Source: Tetradesmus obliquus
Taxonomy: Eukaryota > Chlorophyta > Chlorophyceae > Sphaeropleales > Scenedesmaceae
Length of the DNA: 64,000 bases
NCBI GenBank assembly: GCA_030272155.1
Contig: CP126196.1
Coordinates: forward strand, 2,170,001 to 2,234,000
Reading direction: 5' to 3'
Of this stretch, positions 3,870 through 34,138 are shown piece by piece. The number at the start of each line of letters is the position of its first letter. Position 1 is the stretch's first letter. Position numbers and translations under genes: made by a program. Below the pieces are notes generated by a model. That model worked only from the letters and a program-made list of their open reading frames with translations. It was not told the DNA's origin and ran no database searches.

Positions 3870-6800
3870 ATGCTTTCCATGAACAGGGAGACCAAGCCTG
3901 GCCACTGGCAGACAGTGGCGCCAAAGGAGAAGAAGCAGAAGCGCCAGGGTGAGAAGCAGTGCTTGCAGGACAGCAGCTTTTGTGCTGCACCAGCTTGCAG
4001 GACAGCCACAGACTTGATGTATCTTGCTGGCTCCCAGTGTCGCTGGTTGTGACTCGTTTGCACACTCCAACATGCTAACAAAACACAGCAACTGCAGACA
4101 TAAATGCCATAGCCTGTGTTCAGCAGACGCACCTCCTGAACATCAGTAAACATCAGTATGTACCCGCCCTTCCTGCGCCTGTTCTGTGCTGACTTGCGCC
4201 TAGCAGAGGAGAAGAAGGACGTCAAGAAGGACAGGCTGGGTGTGGCCATCGACCCCACTGCAGCAGCCTTTGCAGCCTTTGACAGGTCCTATGCCAACAA
4301 GGCCGCTGCTGCCAAGGCCGCAGCCGCAGCTGCAGCGCAGCAGAAGGACGCCAGCTACTCGGGTGCCTTTGCAGGACTGGTGGACGAGGTGCCCCAGGTG
4401 GTGCAGGATGAGGAGGGCAGCAGCGGCGACGAGGGCTCCTCTGCGGCAGCTCCTGCAGCTGCTGCAAAGGCCCCCAAGCAGCCTAAGGCGCCCAAGAAGC
4501 CAAAGCTGACAGTGGCACAGGTGGCGGCAGGTGCGCGGCTTGTAAGCAAAGACGTGTGGTCAAAGGCTCAAACTGCACTGAGTGTTGCAGTAACCGTACT
4601 TACGCTTGCGCTGCAGGCGTGGACGTGGCTGCGCTGAAGGCCTGGATGACCGAGGTCAAGAGGAAGTACAGCAAGAACGAGACCGCCCAGGTAAGGGGTT
4701 GTCTGGGCTGAGTTCAAAGCCGCTACAAATAACAATACGGCAGCAGCAGCAGCAGTGTGCCGGGCATTTCATGGACTGCACTCTACGTGTGTAACCATCA
4801 ATGCTTGCGAGAAGATGTGCAGACTCATGGCGCCTGCTGCTCCATGCTCGTGCAGCATGCTTTCATGTCAGCTGCACCTGGTCACCCGTTCCTACCTGCC
4901 TGCTGCTGGGCTGCTGCGTGCATGCCTCATCTTTGTCTCCTTTCCACGCATGCCTGTGCTGCTCCTGGTCTGTCTTGGTCAGGCTGCCTTCCTGGACTCA
5001 CCCTGCTGCTTGCTGCTGCTTGCTGTGAACACGTGTGCAGCTGGAGGCGCTGTCTGACTGGCTGCTGGTGGCCTTCAAGGAGGCCAGCCTGGACCTGGGC
5101 AAGCTGCTGTCTACCAAGGGCCTGGCGGTGGTGAGCAGGGCTGTCTGGTTGCTGATGTTTTACTGCTGCTGCTGTTGCTGTTGATGCTGGCAACCAAGGG
5201 CCTGGCAGCGGTGAACGTGGCACTTGAAACTGTACCTGATTTATCAGCACGTTGTTGTTATCGTGCAATGCTTGCAGTTGACTGCAGTTCAAACCGATCA
5301 ACAAGACACATGCCGCAAGCCTACTGATTCTCATGTATGTACCATGCTCACAATAATCGCAGGCCACCGAGCAGCCGCTGGCTGAGGTGCCGCAGCCGCT
5401 GCTGAGCACCATCACCAGCTTTGTCTCCGACGTGGGGGACGACGCTTTGCTGGCGATGTGTGTGCCGCTGACGGCGGCAGTGGTCAGTGAGGCAGTGGGT
5501 GGCCCCTCTGGCACTGCGCCCACTGGCAAGGGCAAGGCGGGCCTGCAGGTCATGCTGGCAGTGATCCTGCGCACGCGCCCACAGGTGAACACGCAAAACC
5601 ACATGTAGCTGATGGGTGCTGCCACCACATTTGCATGCTGATTGCTTGCTGGCAGATGAAAAGCACTCGGCTGTCAGTGCGTGTGACTAATGTATGTGAA
5701 GGCTCTGACTAGTAGATGCCGTGACTATGGACAAGCCGCTGTACTCCTCACAACCACCTGCCTTGTGATATGTCTGCTCTGCTGCATTGCCGCAACAGGT
5801 GCTGGTGCGCGCAGCGCCAGAGCTGCGCCTGGCAGGCAGGCAGCTGAGCGGCGCTGGCCGCCTGCAGGTGCTGCTGTGGGTGGTCAACCAGGTGAGTCTC
5901 TGACTGATTTCATTCAGCTGATGCTGGACAGCTGATTCCAACTTGTTCCTGCGTTGGCCTCCTTCCACAAGCAGGCTGCAGGAGCCTGCTGATGCTGTAT
6001 TCACATCACACACGTGTGGCTCTGGCAGGTGCCGCTCAGCCTCATTTTGCGCGGTTCAGCTCAATCAAACTTGCTGATTCCCACATTAATCTCAACTCTG
6101 CTTTCCTGTCCTTCTCTGGTGCGTCACAGGCTGCCGTGGTGGATCCGTCAGTGGGCGTGGCCGTGTGGGTGCGCCTGCTGCTGCCGCAGCTGCTGGGCCT
6201 GCCTGAGCTGCCTGCAAGCAGCAGCGGGGCCCCCAGCAGCAGCGCTGCTGCTGCCAAGGGCAGCGGCAGCAAAGGCATCACCCCTGCTGCCCTTGTGGAC
6301 GACCTGATGCGGCCCCTGGAGGTGCCCCTGCAGGGCCCAGCAGTGCAGTTCCTGGCTGGCCTGCTCTCCAAGCTGCAGGCAAGCGGCGCAGCAGCAGCAA
6401 CCGGTGATGTGAGGCATGCAGGCGGGGATGTGGAGCCTACTGTGCCCGGTGCAGCAGTAGAGCTGCTGTCGCGGCTGGCGGCAGGCAAGCCTGTCACCAC
6501 TGCAGCAGCGCCTACTGCTGGCGGCCCGGGCGCCGCAGCGGCGGCGGCAGCGGCAGCAGTGGAGGGCAAGAAGGCCGCAGCAGCGCGCGCTGCTGCTGCC
6601 TCGGCCCTCGCGCCGCAGCTGCCAGGCCTGACGCAGCTGGCTGCGGCTACGAGCTGCCTGCGGCAGTACAGCGACTGGCTGCTGCTGGCGTTAGAGAGTG
6701 CCGCGCAGTCTGATGCTGCCCCTGAGTCGCCTGACCAGCTGGTGCAGCGGAGCGCATCCAGTGTGGTGGCCTGCATCTGCGGCAGGTGAGTTTCGCTGTG

Positions 6801-25384: not shown

Positions 25385-28300
25385 AGCTTTGAGGGGCTGC
25401 ACTACCATGAGGATGCTCATGGCCACAAGTACCTGCTGGGGCTGTGTGAAGGTGGGTTGTTACCTCAAGCTTATAACATGTCAGATAACACGCCGCCACT
25501 CATTCATGTCTGTCAAGCACATGAAACGAAGCTGTGTGGCTGCAGCTTGTTGTTGCCAACAGCAAACTCATGCATGCTGCACCGCCAGCAACTGCTGCAC
25601 TGGAGTCACCAGTACAGTTCAGTTGCTCAGCGCTGCTTTCCATGTGAACAATCATAATGCTGGTCAAAGAAATCCTCTGCCATCTATTTGATTTGCCGAG
25701 AGTTGATGTATCGGGGCGTTGCTGCATGCTTGCTGCTGCAGGCAACTTTTGCAAAGGCGGCGCGGAGGGCAGGGAGACTGGCAACGGCCGCATCATAGTG
25801 TCACAGGTATGCCGCCCTCAAGGCATTGTGTGTGCAAATGCAGCAGAACGTTTTTTGGAAATTCATATATCTTGGTTGTGCAGTTGAACCCGTCTCCGTG
25901 TGCGGCAAGAAACATTGTATTCAAGGTTACGCACCAGCCCTGCTGCTGCCGTTTCCCTCCCTAGTGCGTAACTTCCAGCGTGTCTGCAACCCCGTATCGA
26001 CACGTGCGCCAGCCTCCAGCATATTTGGACGATACAACAGACCAATTCCTTGTGCTGATGTTTTTTTGGTGCTGCTGTGCTGCAGTTTAACGGCAAATCT
26101 GGCGAGGGGTCCTGCGGCTGGGACGTGGTCAAGGAGGTGGCTATTGCGCCCGCAACATTGGATTCACACTCCAAGCACCCAAAACCACTAATTGTTTATA
26201 ATTATGGCTGATGCCTGCGTTGCAGTTCAACGGCAAGTCTGGCGAGGGCGCATGCGGCTGGGACGTGGTCAAGGAGGTGGCCATCCCCCCTGCAGCAGAC
26301 TTCATGGACTACAGCGGCATGGCATTCAGGGGCAGCAAGGTGGGCTCCTTGTTACAACACATTGTACCACTGGATATGTCCCGTGTGAAGCTCTGCTTGT
26401 GGTTTGCTTGGAGCGTGCATGCGGTTTGTGCATCATTGAACGTGGTTTTCATGTGTTGTGGCTGGGACGTGGTCAAGGAGGTGACCCCCCTGCAGCTGAC
26501 TTCGTGGACTACAGCGGCATGGCCTTCAGGGGCAGCAAGGTGGGGGCCAGCTGCATTTGATGTGCGCCATATGTCGTACATCTGCCGCCTTCTCAGCGAC
26601 ATGGCCTTCAAGTGCAGCATGGCAAGCGGCTGTGCAGTATAACAAAAAGATTTGGGGAAGCAATATGCCCCATCTTAGCAAACTGCTGTTGTCAGCAGAC
26701 TTCATGGACTACAGCGGCATGGCCTTCAGGGGCAGCCAAGGTGCGTGGGGCAGCAATACGTCTGACTGCTTTTGCCATGCAACCGTTGAGGGAGATTTGC
26801 CTGATGCGTGGTTGGTTGAGGCATGCGGGGTTTGACAGTAGTGTTGTTTGATCTGAGATCTGGTCTAGGCAGACTTCATGGACTACAGCGGCATGGCCTT
26901 CAGGGGCAGCAAGGTGGGGGTTGAAGTTGAAAAAGAGAAGGAAACTCTAGAGGCTACACAGGATGATGTGTTACGATATGGAAAACAGGGCGCTCCGTGT
27001 GTGCTGTGTGATGCTCTGCTTGTTTGGGCAACATGTGAAGAAGTCCAAAATCAGAAGGAAAAAAAGGCATGTGTGTCCTGGAGGGTGCTGCAGGGGTGCT
27101 GAGGCTGGGATATGGTCGAGGTGGCGGCCATACCCCCCACTGTAATTTTCCTGGACTACAGCGGCATGGCCTTCAGGGGCAGCACGGGACAACAGCGCGA
27201 TGTGGGTGGGGCGTTTTGAGTTTGAGGGGCTGGAGTCCACCTCTGCTGCTGTTACTGCTGCTGCTGCTGCTGTTGCCGCTGCTGCGGCAGCTGCTGCTGC
27301 TGCTGCTGCAGGCTGCCGTTGTGAGCCAGGAGAACAGCGCGATGTGGGTGGGGTAGTTTGAATTGCGGCAATGCAGTTTCACCTCTGCTGCCCCCGCCGC
27401 TGCTGCTGCTGCTGTTGCAGACAGCAATTGTGAGCCAGGAGAACAGCGCGATGTGGGTTGGGGAGTTTGATTTCGAGGCGCTGGAGTTCACCTCGGAGGG
27501 CCAGGTCTTCAACTTCCCGCGCGACAACCACTGCGACGTGAGCGGCTGCTGCTGCAAAGCAGTGCAATGCAATGCAACACAATGCACAGATGGCAAGGAT
27601 TGTGCTCTGCAGCATTCGGCTGCTGATGAGGATCTGTTGGTGGAATTGATTTGGCTGCATGGCCAGCACAGCTAAGCCACATGTCTGTCAGCCTGACAGG
27701 TGCATGTTCAACGACATATGTTGCTGCCGCAATCACACGATCAGATCTGAGCGTGACAGCACCTCATATTGTCGACCTGGCCTTGCCGGTGTGCCGCTCA
27801 TTACCATGGCGGCACTTCCTTGTCACTCACCTGCCCTGTGAACCCCCCGTGTACGATCTTCTGCAACGTGGAGGGCGTGCAGTGGCTGGACGACGCGCGT
27901 GTCGTCATCAAGACTAGCACCCTACCCTTGCGTGTGTGCCGCTCATTCACGCCTCTTGTCACTGCCCTATCTCTGCACGCCTGCCCCCGCAGATGATCTT
28001 CTGCAGCGTGGAGGGCGTGCAGTGGCTGGACGACGTGCGTGTGGTCATCGAGACTAGCACCCCAGCCTTGCGCGTGTGCGCTCAATCACGCCTCTTGTCA
28101 CTGCGGCGGCCCTTGCACGCCTGCCCCCGCATGAACTTTCAAAACGTGGAGGGCGGCAGGTGGCTGGACGACGTGCGTGTCGTCATCAAGGCTAGCAGCC
28201 TAGCCTTGAGTGTGTGCGCTCATCACGTTTCTTGTCACTGCCCTGCCTCTGCACTTATGCTCCTGCAGATGATCTTCTGCAACGTGGACGCTGACGTGGA

Positions 28301-28769
28301 GGGCGTGCAGTGGCTGGACGACGTGAGGGTGGTCATCACCAAAAGCACCCTGGTCTTGGTTGTGTGTGCTCATTCATGTGTTTTCTGTCGCTGCCCTACC
28401 TCTGCTCACTTGCCCCCGCAGATGATCTTTTGCAACGTGGAGGGCGTGCAGTGGCTGGACGACGTGAGGGTGGTCATCGCGAGCGACAAGGCAAAGAAGG
28501 ACCAGCCCTTCCGCTGCGTGGACCACGAGCAGCGCGTGAGCATCTTCGCGCTGCCGGAGGGCTCCAACGACGGGCCGGAGCCCTCGCGGGCGAGCGTCGA
28601 GAAAAGTAACAACAAAAGTAACAACATTCAAATCGACAGCCAACAGCTGCAGCAGGTGGATGAGGGTGGTGAGGATGGGGAGGTGGATGTGGTGGTGGAG
28701 GAGGGACTGACTGTGCACTCCTTCTTTGAGGAGGATGGTGCCGAGCAGGAGCTGGTTGCTGCAGTTTGA
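22319..28769 (+). CDS. Secreted beta-propeller-like protein, SdiA-regulated/phytase-esterase-like
   Basis: Ten exons give 442 residues: 22319-22449, 23315-23464, 23898-24008, 24532-24673, 24967-25052, 25387-25451, 25742-25806, 26226-26339, 27421-27537 and 28422-28769. The start has a good context (CCCACCATGG). Residues 1-25 are a signal peptide (RRRVCVLCLTVLIVLISALG). Blade-like repeats follow: FEGLTY...GHFFAVEE (about 147-160), FEGLHY...KYLLGLCEGNFC (about 208-228), DYSGMAFRGSKTAIVSQEN (about 278-296) and NVEGVQWLDDVRVVIASD (about 332-349). The EG-x-x-W/Y and 'EE/EGN/QEN/SDK' pattern resembles the SdiA-regulated and esterase-like-phytase propeller families. I recall unnamed conserved homologues in other eukaryotes. 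No catalytic residue can be assigned. The tail after FALPEG is acidic and unique. Most exons have decayed tandem copies in the adjacent introns; the copies chosen here are those that keep the frame. Confidence 0.78.
22951..23314 (+). repeat. Three tandem copies of the start of propeller exon 2
   Basis: The exon 2 start (acceptor then CTCGCGGCTGCCCTCCTT) recurs upstream at 22951, 23062 and 23182, before the intact copy at 23315. The last two extra units share about 120 nearly identical bases and end in a GTCAGT donor-like site. Confidence 0.9.
23430..23897 (+). repeat. Copies of the exon 2 end and exon 3 start
   Basis: The end of exon 2 (GGGACAGACAAAGTGAGC at about 23452-23469) recurs at about 23555-23572. 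The start of exon 3 (TTTGAGGCGAGCGGCATGAC) has degraded copies at 23620, about 23712 and 23811, before the intact one at 23898. Two of the three extra copies keep a CAG acceptor. Confidence 0.88.
24070..24480 (+). repeat. Copies of exon 3 end and exon 4 start
   Basis: The exon 3 end (TTTGACAACCTGCTGG...GAGTTCAGGT) is copied at about 24077-24128 with a frame-shifting deletion, and more distantly at about 24240-24290. The exon 4 start (CAGGGACAAGAGCAACC) has an extra copy at 24427-24476 ahead of the intact one at 24532. Confidence 0.85.
25345..25384 (+). repeat. (CTG)12 forming a 3' splice site
   Basis: The CTG run ends in the CTGCAG acceptor of exon 6 of the propeller gene. Confidence 0.9.
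26087..27215 (+). repeat. Exon 8 in five partial copies
   Basis: The block for DYSGMAFRGSK (intact at 26299-26339) recurs at about 26502, 26700, 26875 and 27153 with very few changes. The first half (FNGKSGEG...GWDVVKEV) recurs at 26087 and in part at about 26459 and 27108. The 27153 copy runs without an intron into exon 9-like sequence. Confidence 0.9.
27310..27360 (+). repeat. Extra copy of exon 9 start
   Basis: GTGAGCCAGGAGAACAGCGC and the following bases match exon 9 (27421-27537), but the frame is broken by TAG at about 27354. Another partial copy is at 27187-27240. Confidence 0.9.
27850..28421 (+). repeat. Four tandem copies of the start of the last propeller exon
   Basis: Copies of the MIFCNVEGVQWLDDVRVVI block start near 27852 and at 27993, 28131 and 28269, with the intact exon at 28422. 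The spacing of 138, 138 and 153 bases is divisible by three, so copies 2 to 5 lie in one uninterrupted frame (27936-28769). Several keep a CCCCCGCAG acceptor. Confidence 0.92.
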
Positions 28770-29590
28770 CGAACGCAATCTGCTGCGTAACTGCATGCAC
28801 CTGCTCCATCATGGCGCTGTGCAGCGCAGATATGGCTTGGCCGCCATGCATGGCCCATATGGGCTGCGGCAGTGATTGGCCCAGCCATTGGGCTGGCAGC
28901 TACAGCGCCACAGCGACGATGGCTTTGAGCCTTGCTGTGCTGCATGCCCAATTTTGCATGGACGGAAGATGTTGACAGCTGACAGCGCTACATGGACACG
29001 ATGTCATGTACCGCCGGACGGCTGCCAAAACATGCGCTGATGCTGGTTTGCATGTGATGCGGCACGTGGTCTAGCTCTTGCTCAGCAAGCTGCTCGTCGC
29101 ATCGTGTTGCCTGTTGCATGATGCCAGTGCAATGATTGTGTTTGGGCTGGCACAGCAAAACCACGTGAAGACCTTAAAGAAAACAGCAGAATGCGGGCCT
29201 CAGTACTTGACATAGATAGCTTGCTGAGGCTTCCAGCTCTTTTGGCTTTTTACGGCATGTTTTGGAACCCCAAAAACTGTGTTGACTTCTTCAAGAAGTT
29301 CTTGGCGGGCCAGCGCCCCACTGTAGGGCAGCCCTACTTGGGTGAGATTGTGAATCAGCAACAATCTGGTGGTTTCTTTCTTTTCGAAGGACTGGCCAGT
29401 GGTGTGGTTTGGTTGCTTTCTTCTCTGCCCAACTTGGGCATTGAATGAGCCTGTCATTGGATCTCCAGTGGCGAGATTGGTAAGTTGATGCTCCTCTGTG
29501 TCACCGTGTTTCGGGGCGCGGGGTTGGGGCGATCGGGTTACAGGAGGAAATTGGGGCGACTCGCTCACTGTATTATTATTGTCCCCCTTT

Positions 29591-30736: not shown

Positions 30737-32546
30737 ATGGAGGTCGACCTCTCTGACATGGACCTGGCTGCGATCCTCAACGGCACCCAATTGCAAGCTC
30801 CCGCCATCATGGGGGGAGCAGGGATGGCCCCAGCACTTGCAGGAGGGCAGGTTGCAGCAGATGCTGATGTCGTTTTAGCGGCCCTGCAGCTCATGCTGCA
30901 TCAGCAGCAGCAGCGCTACGGCAACGGCGAGCAGCCGCCAGTGCGGGTACAGCAGCAGCAGCAGTACAATGGCCCACCGCTGCGTTATTTGATGACAGGG
31001 CGGGCGGTGAAGTTTTGCACCACCAGGGAGGAGGTGCTGCACCACTACCAGACTCTGCCGGAGGGAAGGTAAACATGACATGAAAAATACCATCGGTTGA
31101 TAGTAGAGTATGGTAATGAGATGATAGAAAGTGCCGGAGAGAAGGTACTTGCCAGTGGCGGAGTATGCAGCAAAGCTGCAGCGCAGTGCAGTGCTGTCAA
31201 AGCTCCTAGCGGCATTAAGTCAGGCAGTGAGCCAGTTGTCAGTGACATCATGCATGCCCTGATCGATGCTGCATGTTGGTGTTGTTGGTGTGCCTGTACG
31301 CATGCAGACGCTCGCAGCTCTCCACATTTGCCTGCATACAGGTGCTGGCCACCACCAGAGTATGCAGCGAGCCTGGTGTGCCTCCCTGCACACATGTGGA
31401 CGTAAGCAAGTATTCTGTTGAGTGTTGTCACAGGCCGGTGCCAGAGTATGCAGCGCAGGTGCAGGGCAGTGTGTTGCTGGCGAGCTGCTACGGCTCTCTG
31501 GCCGGTTGTGTGCTGACTCACTGTTTTGCTGTCACAGGTACTGGCCAGTGCCGGAGTATGCAGCCAGGCTGCAGGGCGCAAACAATGCCGGCATCGTACG
31601 TACACGAGTCAACACAACAGGTGTGTCTACTGGCCACAGTTTGGTACTGCAGCTGTTCCGGCCTTTGGGCGGTGCATAATCAATGCTGTTGTCGGCCTGT
31701 GAGCTGGCGGTGGCATTGCACGTGTGACAGTTAACACACAGCAGCATGCGGAGGCTACTGGCAGGTGTTGATGCTGCCTGTGAGCTGGCGCCCTTTTGCA
31801 AAGCATCCCTGATGCGACGTAGTGCGGTTTGAAGTGACTTGACGGCGTATGACAGCAAATCCCTGCGTTGCAGTCAAAGATGGTGCCAGGACCCACGTGT
31901 AACTATCCTCTCTAAAACAAATGCCGGCGTTGCAATCTAGACAATTTGCTCAACAGCACCCTGCCCTTTCCTGCCTGCTGTTGGTCTGTCCTGTGTTATG
32001 CTGCAGGGCATGCTCCCAGCGCCATCCCAGTGGTGAGCGATGCGTGGCACAGGGTTCAGGGTCTGTGGTTTATGGAGGTGTCAGGGTTGAGGTTTAAACT
32101 TTGAACACAAACCCTAAGCATGCTTCAAGCGCCATGCCAGTGGTGAGCGATGCATGGCACAGGGTTCAGGGTTTGTGGTTTATGGAGGTGTCAGGGTTGA
32201 GGTTTAAATTTTGAACACAAACCCTAAGCATGCCTCGCCATGTCAGCAGTGAGCGATGCATGATGTGTGGCAGAGATCGGCCACCCCCACCGCCGCAATG
32301 CCGCAGTCCCAGCCGCAGGTTCTATGCATTGCAGCAGCAACAGGAGAAGCTTGCAGGAATAGGCTTGCAGGAATAGGAATGACAGGGATGGCGCGGTGCT
32401 GGGTGTGCATGTTAGGGCAGCCAGTGAGCTGGCATTTTATCTGCCCTGCACATGCACAAGCAGGCAGTCACAGAGCAACTGGGCCTGCACCACACCCACT
32501 GCTGCTGCTGCTCCTGCTGCTGCTGCTCCTGCTGCTGCTGCTGTTG

Positions 32547-32625
<79 letters not shown>

Positions 32626-34138
32626 AGGAGCTCGCAGACCGGCTGGGCCTGCGCCGCCACCCGCTGCGCGCCGGCGGCGGCGTCGTCAGCACCATCTTGT
32701 ACCAGGACACACCCGCGCCAGCAGAGGTCTTAGAAGAGCCGCTCACTGTGCAGCTGCTGGCAGGGCCTGGTGCAGTGGCGCTGGAGATCACCCTGCCTGC
32801 TGTGCTGGTGCTGCCTGGCACACCGGGGTCAGACAGGCAGCTGTTTGAGCTGCAGCTGGGGCTCTTTGACTTCTGTGCAGCTGTGGAGATGGACTTCATT
32901 CCGCTGTGGGCTTCGCAGTTCAAGGTTCGGGAGTCCGGGTACTGCTTTGCGCTGCCGGTGGTGGCGCCGCCTCCGCCGCACATCTACGGCAGCATGCCAA
33001 TGGGCTCGAGCACCTTTCACATCACGCAGGCGGCGTATGATGAGGTGAGGGCATGTTCAATTGCTGTAAACCCTAAAACCCTGTTAGCGGTCAAGAGGAG
33101 GGCCGAAGGCTTTTGATTGTTTGGGCTCGAGCACCTTCCACATTACGCGGGCGGCGTATGATGAGGTGCGAAAGGGATTGATGCCTGCGCCAGTTCAGGG
33201 ATAGGCACAAGGTGCACACAGGCGCTGGGATTGCACTGGCTAGTCAGGCAGTGCTGGCGTGTTACACAGCAACAGATGCTGCTGCTGCTGCTGGGGCTGA
33301 TCACATTACCAGACTTGCAGAAGCTGCTGCTTTACCCGCAGCTTACCATAACGTGTAGCGTCCGCTGCTTGCTGACGCGGCACATGTTGCTGGGCCTTTG
33401 CGTGCTTTGCCTCACTGCACGCAGGTGCTAGAGATCACACTGGCTAGACAGGCAGTGCTTGCGCGCCGCACAGCTGCTGCTGCTGCTGCTGCTGCTGCTG
33501 GGGCTGAAGAGGCCGCCTCGCCAGCAGAAGCTGCTGCTGAGGCGATGCTGCAATCAAGGCGCGTTCAAGCAGGGCCGACAGCAGCAGAAGCAGCAGAGAC
33601 AGCAGCAGCAGCAGCAGCAGTGGGAACACGTGAGTGGATCGATGAATGGACGACCGCTCCTCGGCCACAGCAGCAGCGCCAGCAGCAGCGTGGTAGGCGT
33701 GGTGGCCGGCGCGGTAGGGGTAGAGGTAGGGGCAGCAGCAGCAGCAGCCGACAGCAGGCAGCACAAGCAAGCAGTGGTGCCGCCGGTCCTGCTGCTGCTG
33801 TCACAGCAGACTCAGCAGCAGCAGCAGAGGCTCATGCTGCTGCAGCTACTGCAGCAACAACAACAGCGGGCGTATACGCTGGGCTGGACCCCCTGCCAGC
33901 TGGCCTGACTGCCAGCCTGTGGCGTGACGTGGCTGCCACCTCACTGCCGGAGGGTGATGAGTGCTGCATCATCTGCATGGACGGCTTTGAGGATGACCTG
34001 GAGGACGGCAGTACACGGCTGGTGACGCAGCTGGCCTGCCGCCACACGCACTGCGTGCTGTGCCTGCGGCAGTACGTGACGCAGCGCAGCTTCCGGCGGC
34101 AGCCGCTGCGCTGCCCGCACTGCAACACGCAGGTGTGA
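30737..34138 (+). CDS. RING-HC protein, probable E3 ubiquitin ligase
   Basis: Five exons give 523 residues: 30737-31068, 31538-31620, 32007-32032 (a 26-base microexon), 32628-33044 and 33425-34138. The start has a strong context (GCCACCATGG). The C-terminus is a C3HC4 RING: C-x2-C in CCIICMDGF, then CRHTHCVLC and CPHC, about residues 465-520. C3HC4 RINGs bind two zinc ions and recruit ubiquitin-charged E2 enzymes; the substrate is unknown. The middle (exon 4, LADRLGLRRHPLRAGGG to GSSTFHITQAAYDE) looks folded but I do not recognise it. Exon 5 adds an Ala-rich stretch and an RG-rich stretch (GRRGGRRGRGRGRG), possibly RNA-binding. The exon 2-3 junction was chosen because it keeps phase; an earlier donor at 31596, skipping the microexon, also works. 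Tandem copies of exon edges fill the introns. Confidence 0.75.
31129..31537 (+). repeat. Three decayed copies of RING exon 2 inside intron 1
   Basis: Copies of the exon 2 start (GTACTGGCCAGTGCCGGAG) lie at 31145, about 31340 and about 31433, before the real one at 31538. The first is joined without a gap to a copy of the exon 1 end (31131-31144). Confidence 0.85.
32008..32240 (+). repeat. 110-base tandem repeat carrying the RING microexon
   Basis: Units begin at 32008, 32118 and 32228 (third partial). The first two are over 90 percent alike by eye. Each begins with the microexon sequence (GCATGCT...GCCAGTGGTGAGC), but only the first has a CTGCAG acceptor. Confidence 0.9.
32500..32626 (+). 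repeat. Long (CTG)n run ending in a 3' splice site
   Basis: About 42 triplets, mostly CTG with a few CTC/TTG interruptions, lead straight into the CTGCAG acceptor of RING exon 4. Confidence 0.92.
33120..33345 (+). repeat. Copies of the exon 4 end and exon 5 start
   Basis: The end of exon 4 (GGCTCGAGCACCTTTCACAT to GATGAG) is repeated at 33122-33166. A decayed copy of the exon 5 start (CACTGGCTAGACAGGCAGTG) lies at about 33235-33345, ahead of the real exon at 33425. Confidence 0.88.

Follow-up and report, generated by a model that had tools for sequence, protein, structure and literature searches.

Intron 1 of a RING-finger gene in Tetradesmus obliquus: a fossil exon junction and a probable gain by local exon duplication around AG^GT

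Tandem duplication of exonic sequence around AGGT is treated as an accepted route of intron gain in the accounts of PMC3443670 and PMC4974935. The ATP2A1 intron (Hellsten 2011, as presented in the same two sources) combines an AG^GT junction (^ marks the boundary), exon copies inside the intron, a preserved coding sequence and intronless homologues. Work cited by PMC4974935 describes fission yeast introns that extend over several 24-bp AGGT units in tandem; the same source describes an intron of the potato RdRp gene where the duplication crossed an intron–exon boundary and a pre-existing intron provided the signals. A different mechanism is represented by the Daphnia neointrons attributed to staggered breaks, which are AT rich and repeat the terminal 4-12 bp of the adjacent exon at their far end, according to PMC4202315. 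Direct repeats near intron borders are described in general terms in PMC11782384, and the source sequence of newly gained introns is, in the account of PMC4974935, rarely identified. Among the titles listed from the open-licence literature, none was on the intron discussed here or on exon copies in the introns of such algae.

The RING gene and its predicted exons

The window, meaning the whole stretch of DNA that was analysed, is 64,000 nucleotides long (G000:C6:2170001-2234000) and belongs to an assembly of 104.7 Mb in 17 contigs. On its plus strand lies a gene whose joined exons (30737-31068, 31538-31620, 32007-32032, 32628-33044 and 33425-34138) give a predicted protein of 523 residues, with a C-terminal RING finger (zf-C3HC4, E 0.00014). 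Its parts are the following.

30737..31068, plus strand: exon 1, an open frame up to GGAAG^gtaaac that aligns with the first part of the relatives' continuous open reading frames (ORFs); the start codon is the author's choice
31069..31537, plus strand: intron 1 (predicted); 17 of 22 homologous ORFs are in frame across the site and two paralogues on contig C8 are continuous there
31538..31620, plus strand: exon 2, functional copy, from acag^GTACTGG to ACAACAG^gtgtgt; homologues conserve the peptide
32007..32032, plus strand: exon 3, 26 nt, GHAPSAIPV (compare QAPSAITR in P0002)
32628..33044, plus strand: exon 4
33045..33424, plus strand: intron 4, with the flanking exon edges copied inside (33122-33168 and 33213-33299)
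33425..34138, plus strand: exon 5, with the RING finger (zf-C3HC4 match in the joined protein)

Rebuilding the exons placed the end of exon 1 at 31068 (AG^GTAAAC) and the start of exon 2 at 31538 (ACAG^GTACTGG), the same boundaries as in the initial annotation. The end of exon 2, put there at 31595, was moved to 31620, because homologues continue with GIVRARINTTG. The joined exon 1–exon 2 peptide aligns with continuous ORFs of homologues, and intron 1 is predicted to be spliced from 31068 to 31538. Exon 3, together with its downstream intron, is repeated in a 110-bp tandem array of 2.3 copies (32008-32262), with copies at about 32118 and 32222.

Exon-derived copies inside intron 1

The donor side and the interior of intron 1 contain the following elements.

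31056..31071, plus strand: first copy of a direct repeat (TGCCGGAGGGAAGGTA), with AG^GT and the present donor; 15/16 identical to 31132-31147
31072..31131, plus strand: AT-rich filler of 60 nt between the direct repeats
31131..31184, plus strand: fossil exon 1–exon 2 junction, intronless; 47/53 ungapped over 31132-31184; encodes VPERRYLPVAEYAAKLQ
31340..31381, plus strand: decayed exon 2 start with acceptor-like CATACAG ahead; 32/42 identical to exon 2
31430..31467, plus strand: decayed exon 2 start with acceptor-like GTCACAG ahead and a 3' flank common with the fossil copy; against exon 2, 34 identical positions, 3 mismatches and 6 gap positions

The central observation, already made in the initial annotation, is that sequence like the end of exon 1 runs directly into sequence like the start of exon 2, with an AGGT at the join. 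This observation is confirmed. An ungapped alignment of 31132-31184 with the joined exon 1–exon 2 sequence crosses the splice junction and shows 47 identities in 53 positions, 12/13 on the exon 1 side and 35/40 on the exon 2 side. The exon 1 arm, on which the reading depends most, is no longer than 13-14 nt. AG^GT is present both at the fossil join (GAAG^GTAC, 31141-31148) and at the present donor (GAAG^GTAA, 31065-31072).

Two controls bear on this match. Among 449,286 14-mers free of masked bases, taken on both strands from the window and 19 sampled 10-kb stretches, just two agree with the exon 1 end in at least 12 of the 14 positions; these are read as exon 1 itself and the fossil copy, which would leave no other places. 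In a second control, 8,938 sampled 79-mers ending in AG before GT were placed ahead of exon 2, and the score gain given by the real exon 1 was equalled once, by a 79-mer that may be exon 1.

A single residue bears on the age of this copy. The first V of VPERRYLPVAEYAAKLQ is the residue found in 15 of 17 homologues spanning the junction (P0018 has L and P0019 has I), and the same position is L in exon 1 of the window and of P0010. Because V is kept as in most spanning homologues, the fossil copy looks older than the exon 1 sequence that resembles it, with the caveat that exon 2 would also give GTG.

The two further decayed copies of exon 2, noticed earlier at about 31340 and 31433, are real, with 69% and 71% ungapped identity to the fossil copy for those at 31340 and about 31430, respectively. 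The 14 bases ahead of them match the end of exon 1 at 3-7 positions, depending on register, and the acceptor flank of exon 2 is not exon 1-like either (3/14). The flanks of the copies resemble one another. A non-exonic 3' flank is common to the fossil copy and the 31430 copy (equalled by 1 of 2000 shuffles). The flank ahead of exon 2 resembles both the sequence after the fossil copy (4/2000) and the flank ahead of the 31430 copy (25/2000). These resemblances suggest that the fossil copy is probably part of the same duplication series as the other exon 2 copies. The fossil copy is the one nearest to the donor and is also the most exon 2-like when 42 ungapped nt are compared (37/42), a pattern at odds with the simplest order of duplications. 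As a separate observation, the copy at 31342-31401 has an acceptor-like start and is followed by a donor-like GTAAGC at 31402, forming a possible 60-nt in-frame cassette exon. The idea that the fossil copy represents a full exon 2, including its last part, was rejected, as 1009 of 2000 shuffles score equally well.

The acceptor side of the intron thus amounts to a tandem array of decayed exon 2 starts; the donor side is a direct repeat around a filler. The sequence TGCCGGAGGGAAGGTA at the end of exon 1 occurs again at 31132-31147, differing at one of 16 positions. The filler between the two copies (31072-31130, 59 nt) has a GC content of 32%, a value as low in 0.17% of 12,660 overlapping sampled windows, and it resembles none of the exons tested. 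When the donor-side segment 31069-31130 was compared with exon 2 (31538-31610), no similarity was found (score 6, reached by 494 of 2000 shuffles). The filler was therefore rejected as a decayed copy of exon 2 and, with 642 of 2000 shuffles scoring equally well, of intron 2. In a genome search that skipped very common words and scored the best candidates, 31069-31135 and 31186-31425 each matched their own place alone; an introner or transposon origin of the filler or the mid-intron was rejected on this ground.

The age of intron 1 and its probable origin

The initial annotation proposed that the ancestral exon was continuous and suggested looking for the absence of the intron in relatives. A search with the exon 1–exon 2 peptide gave 6 proteins, and a seven-row profile search, which scored 7,996 candidates sharing most words, gave 22 homologous ORFs among these, including those 6. 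Read individually and aligned, 17 of the 22 cross the junction in frame without an intron; one of them, P0027, begins only just ahead of it. Ten of the 17 belong to clusters whose longest contig exceeds 5 kb. As read from the alignment, the spanning ORFs cease to resemble the window where exon 2 ends and continue into intron 2, which indicates that this intron is unspliced in them and that they did not arise as retrocopies; P0015 extends through intron 2 as far as exon 3 (HAPTAI). Entries labelled 'lgn' may be spliced sequence, since P0005 skips an intron of the C8 gene, and the EukProt entries P0001 and P0002 are gene models, hence no test of intron absence.

The remaining five ORFs are P0010, which stops exactly at the junction, P0021, which crosses it in a shifted frame, and P0023-P0025, which end upstream, near residue V^RY. 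P0010 is the closest homologue found and ends with PEGR, at the point corresponding to the TAA of the donor in the window; this stop was seen at the protein level only, on a contig of 589 bp. Within the same genome, two paralogues on C8 are continuous at the junction in DNA (L008 4068-4220 and an ORF ending at 5740); both are divergent, and the junction was located in them by loose alignment. Together with the 17 ORFs, they bear out the proposal of an uninterrupted ancestral exon. Two features of this family stand beside these data: P0022-P0025, another branch of it, apparently have an intron elsewhere, just upstream at V^RY or ^RFC, and P0002, P0015, P0018-P0020 and P0026 carry short extra residues at the exon 1–exon 2 junction, as if this spot often expands.

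A tree of 21 rows, from which P0003-P0005, P0021, P0022, P0026 and P0027 were left out and whose deep branches are poorly resolved, groups the window and P0010 in one clade (100/97). Presence of the intron requires one change over the 16 scored rows. Intron 1 thus appears young, being absent from most homologues found.

There is good support for the view that intron 1 was gained from duplicated exon sequence. The specific course that is judged likely places this gain on the stem leading to Tetradesmus obliquus and P0010, by local exon duplication around AG^GT. The ancestor would have had one continuous exon. In the first step, the start of exon 2 would have been tandemly duplicated, which would have kept the original junction in place and put a complete exon 2 downstream of it. 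The old junction, GAAG^GTACTT, could then have served as donor and TGTCACAG, ahead of the downstream copy of exon 2, as acceptor; if the old AG^GT were spliced to this downstream copy, the mRNA would be the same as before. In the second step, repair of a break would have duplicated the 16-nt end of exon 1 and added 60 nt of AT-rich filler, shifting the donor 76 nt upstream to GTAAAC and stranding the old junction in the intron. In the third step, the further copies of exon 2 would have decayed. As part of this best explanation, the stretch 31131-31184, now enclosed in the intron, would be either the uninterrupted junction of the ancestor or a direct duplicate of it, and the 16-nt repeat with its AT-rich filler is most readily interpreted as the product of staggered-break repair. 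Three points are inferred from the arrangement of the sequence: the order in which the steps took place, the origin of the filler in break repair, and the splicing of the intron.

The initial annotation had described the event as tandem duplication at an AGGT, in which the first copy gave the donor and a later copy the acceptor. A continuous ancestor, an AG^GT junction and several exon copies in the intron agree with the duplication itself. The assignment of donor and acceptor is not supported: the donor-side 62 nt are AT-rich and have no likeness to exon 2, and the acceptor flank agrees with the end of exon 1 at 3 of 14 positions. Because the filler and this flank are unlike the exon sequence expected, intron 1 is not classed as a textbook AGGT tandem duplication; it would work like one with an added break-repair step.

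Among the other explanations, repair of a staggered double-strand break alone comes closest, and it is regarded as rather improbable. Under this explanation, the filler was captured between duplicated 16-nt AG^GT ends, so that the intron at first measured 76 nt (31069-31144) and was spliced to the exon 2 start at 31145; exon 2 was tandemly duplicated later and the acceptor moved to 31537. The direct repeat and an AT-rich filler that matches only itself in the genome are what such an event would leave, in keeping with the AT-rich Daphnia neointrons that repeat the terminal bases of the adjacent exon in the account of PMC4202315. The acceptor required, GCCGGAGAGAAG^, has no pyrimidine tract, however, and a 16-nt repeat exceeds the 4-12 bp reported in Daphnia.

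It is less probable still, and on the whole quite unlikely, that an ordinary intron was present first and later received a short intronless piece, whose source could be a paralogue, an allele lacking the intron or mRNA copied by reverse transcription. In favour of this, the two arms of the fossil copy are about equally diverged (12/13 and 35/40). Nevertheless, one extra event is required, the non-exonic 3' flank of the fossil copy is common to another exon 2 copy in intron 1, and the intron is missing from most homologues found.

That the exon 1-side match arose by chance seems very unlikely. Exon 2 also holds AGTGCCGGAG, from which ten bases of that side could derive, with the exception of the GAAG beside the junction; the fossil copy would then be an exon 2 fragment with GTGCCGGAG as its left neighbour, and 10/10 bases do match that piece. 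Over the 20 nt left of the join, however, the end of exon 1 matches 15, compared with 13 for another place in exon 1 (30831) and 12 for the best placement in exon 2, and GAAG adjoining GTAC is accounted for by exon 1 alone.

Similarly, there is little to recommend a reading of the exon 2 copies as tandem alternative exons used in alternative splicing and not as debris, which would be compatible with the gain itself: the possible 31342 cassette and the retention of GAGTATGCAGC in 4/4 copies speak for it, and the last part of exon 2, missing after the fossil copy, speaks against it.

Beyond intron 1 and comparison with known systems

Intron 4 of the same gene contains a 47-nt copy of the end of exon 4 (44/47 identical) and a copy of the start of exon 5. 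Beyond the exon 4 edge, the exon 4-end copy stays similar to exon 5 for just 4 nt. Neither P0004 nor a C8 paralogue, in which the reading frame is interrupted further upstream, has intron 4. A neighbouring gene (26000-28770) is crowded with tandem exon copies; exact GACTACAGCGGCATGGC occurs at five places within 26307-27154, and five CGTGGAGGGCG units lie at the end of that gene with a spacing of about 140 bp.

A scan made independently of gene models, covering 254 kb, gave no excess of split copies with GT...AG at the breaks: 10 were seen and 11.3 expected at thresholds of 10/16, and the observed number was below the expected one at the five other thresholds tried as well, which counts against generality. 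The stretch L011 (G000:C2:500001-510000) consists entirely of N. A tally over 250 kb, made up of 60 kb of the window plus 19 sampled stretches, gave 309 pairs of local direct repeats and 2 inverted ones. All but one of the direct pairs (308 of 309) lie less than 1.5 kb apart. Local direct repeats cover 34.4 of the 250 kb, many pairs lying in the same arrays and so not being independent. AGGT/ACCT is the most enriched of 132 tetramers inside the repeats (1.53-fold; 1.32-1.83 when stretches were resampled), with a median rank of 2 and a place among the top five in 229 of 300 resamplings; among repeats of at most 80 nt it is second. This enrichment fits repeats that span splice sites and does not show intron birth.

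It can be proposed tentatively, and with considerable doubt, that introns are actively arising and being remodelled in this genome through local tandem duplication, so that many of them would carry decayed copies of their flanking exon edges and some an uninterrupted ancestral junction. If this were true, the origin of each intron could be read from its own sequence. The abundance of local direct repeats (309 pairs and 2 inverted) makes this genome a candidate system for watching intron formation. At the level of the single locus, an intron, exon copies, a fossil junction, continuous same-genome paralogues and intronless homologues are united in one place; the order of events is therefore testable in close relatives.

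Each of the described systems corresponds to a part of this locus, as far as the cited accounts present them. Intron 1 shares with ATP2A1 the AG^GT junction, the exon copies inside the intron, the preserved coding sequence and the intronless homologues; its copies differ in being multiple and truncated, its donor side is non-exonic filler, and the pattern of copy 1 as donor and copy 2 as acceptor is not visible. As in fission yeast, the intron extends over several exon-derived tandem units; unlike those in fission yeast, the units have decayed, are unequal and alternate with stretches of unrelated sequence. The likeness to Daphnia lies in the direct repeat of the exon end (15/16), the AT-rich insert (GC 32%) and the signs of repeated rounds, and the difference in the longer repeat (16 nt) and the tandem copies of the downstream exon. 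The potato RdRp intron resembles intron 1 in the tandem duplication of acceptor-bearing exon starts; in contrast to that case, most homologues found here have no intron at the site. Overall, intron 1 is counted as a known kind of event that is unusually well preserved and completely evidenced.
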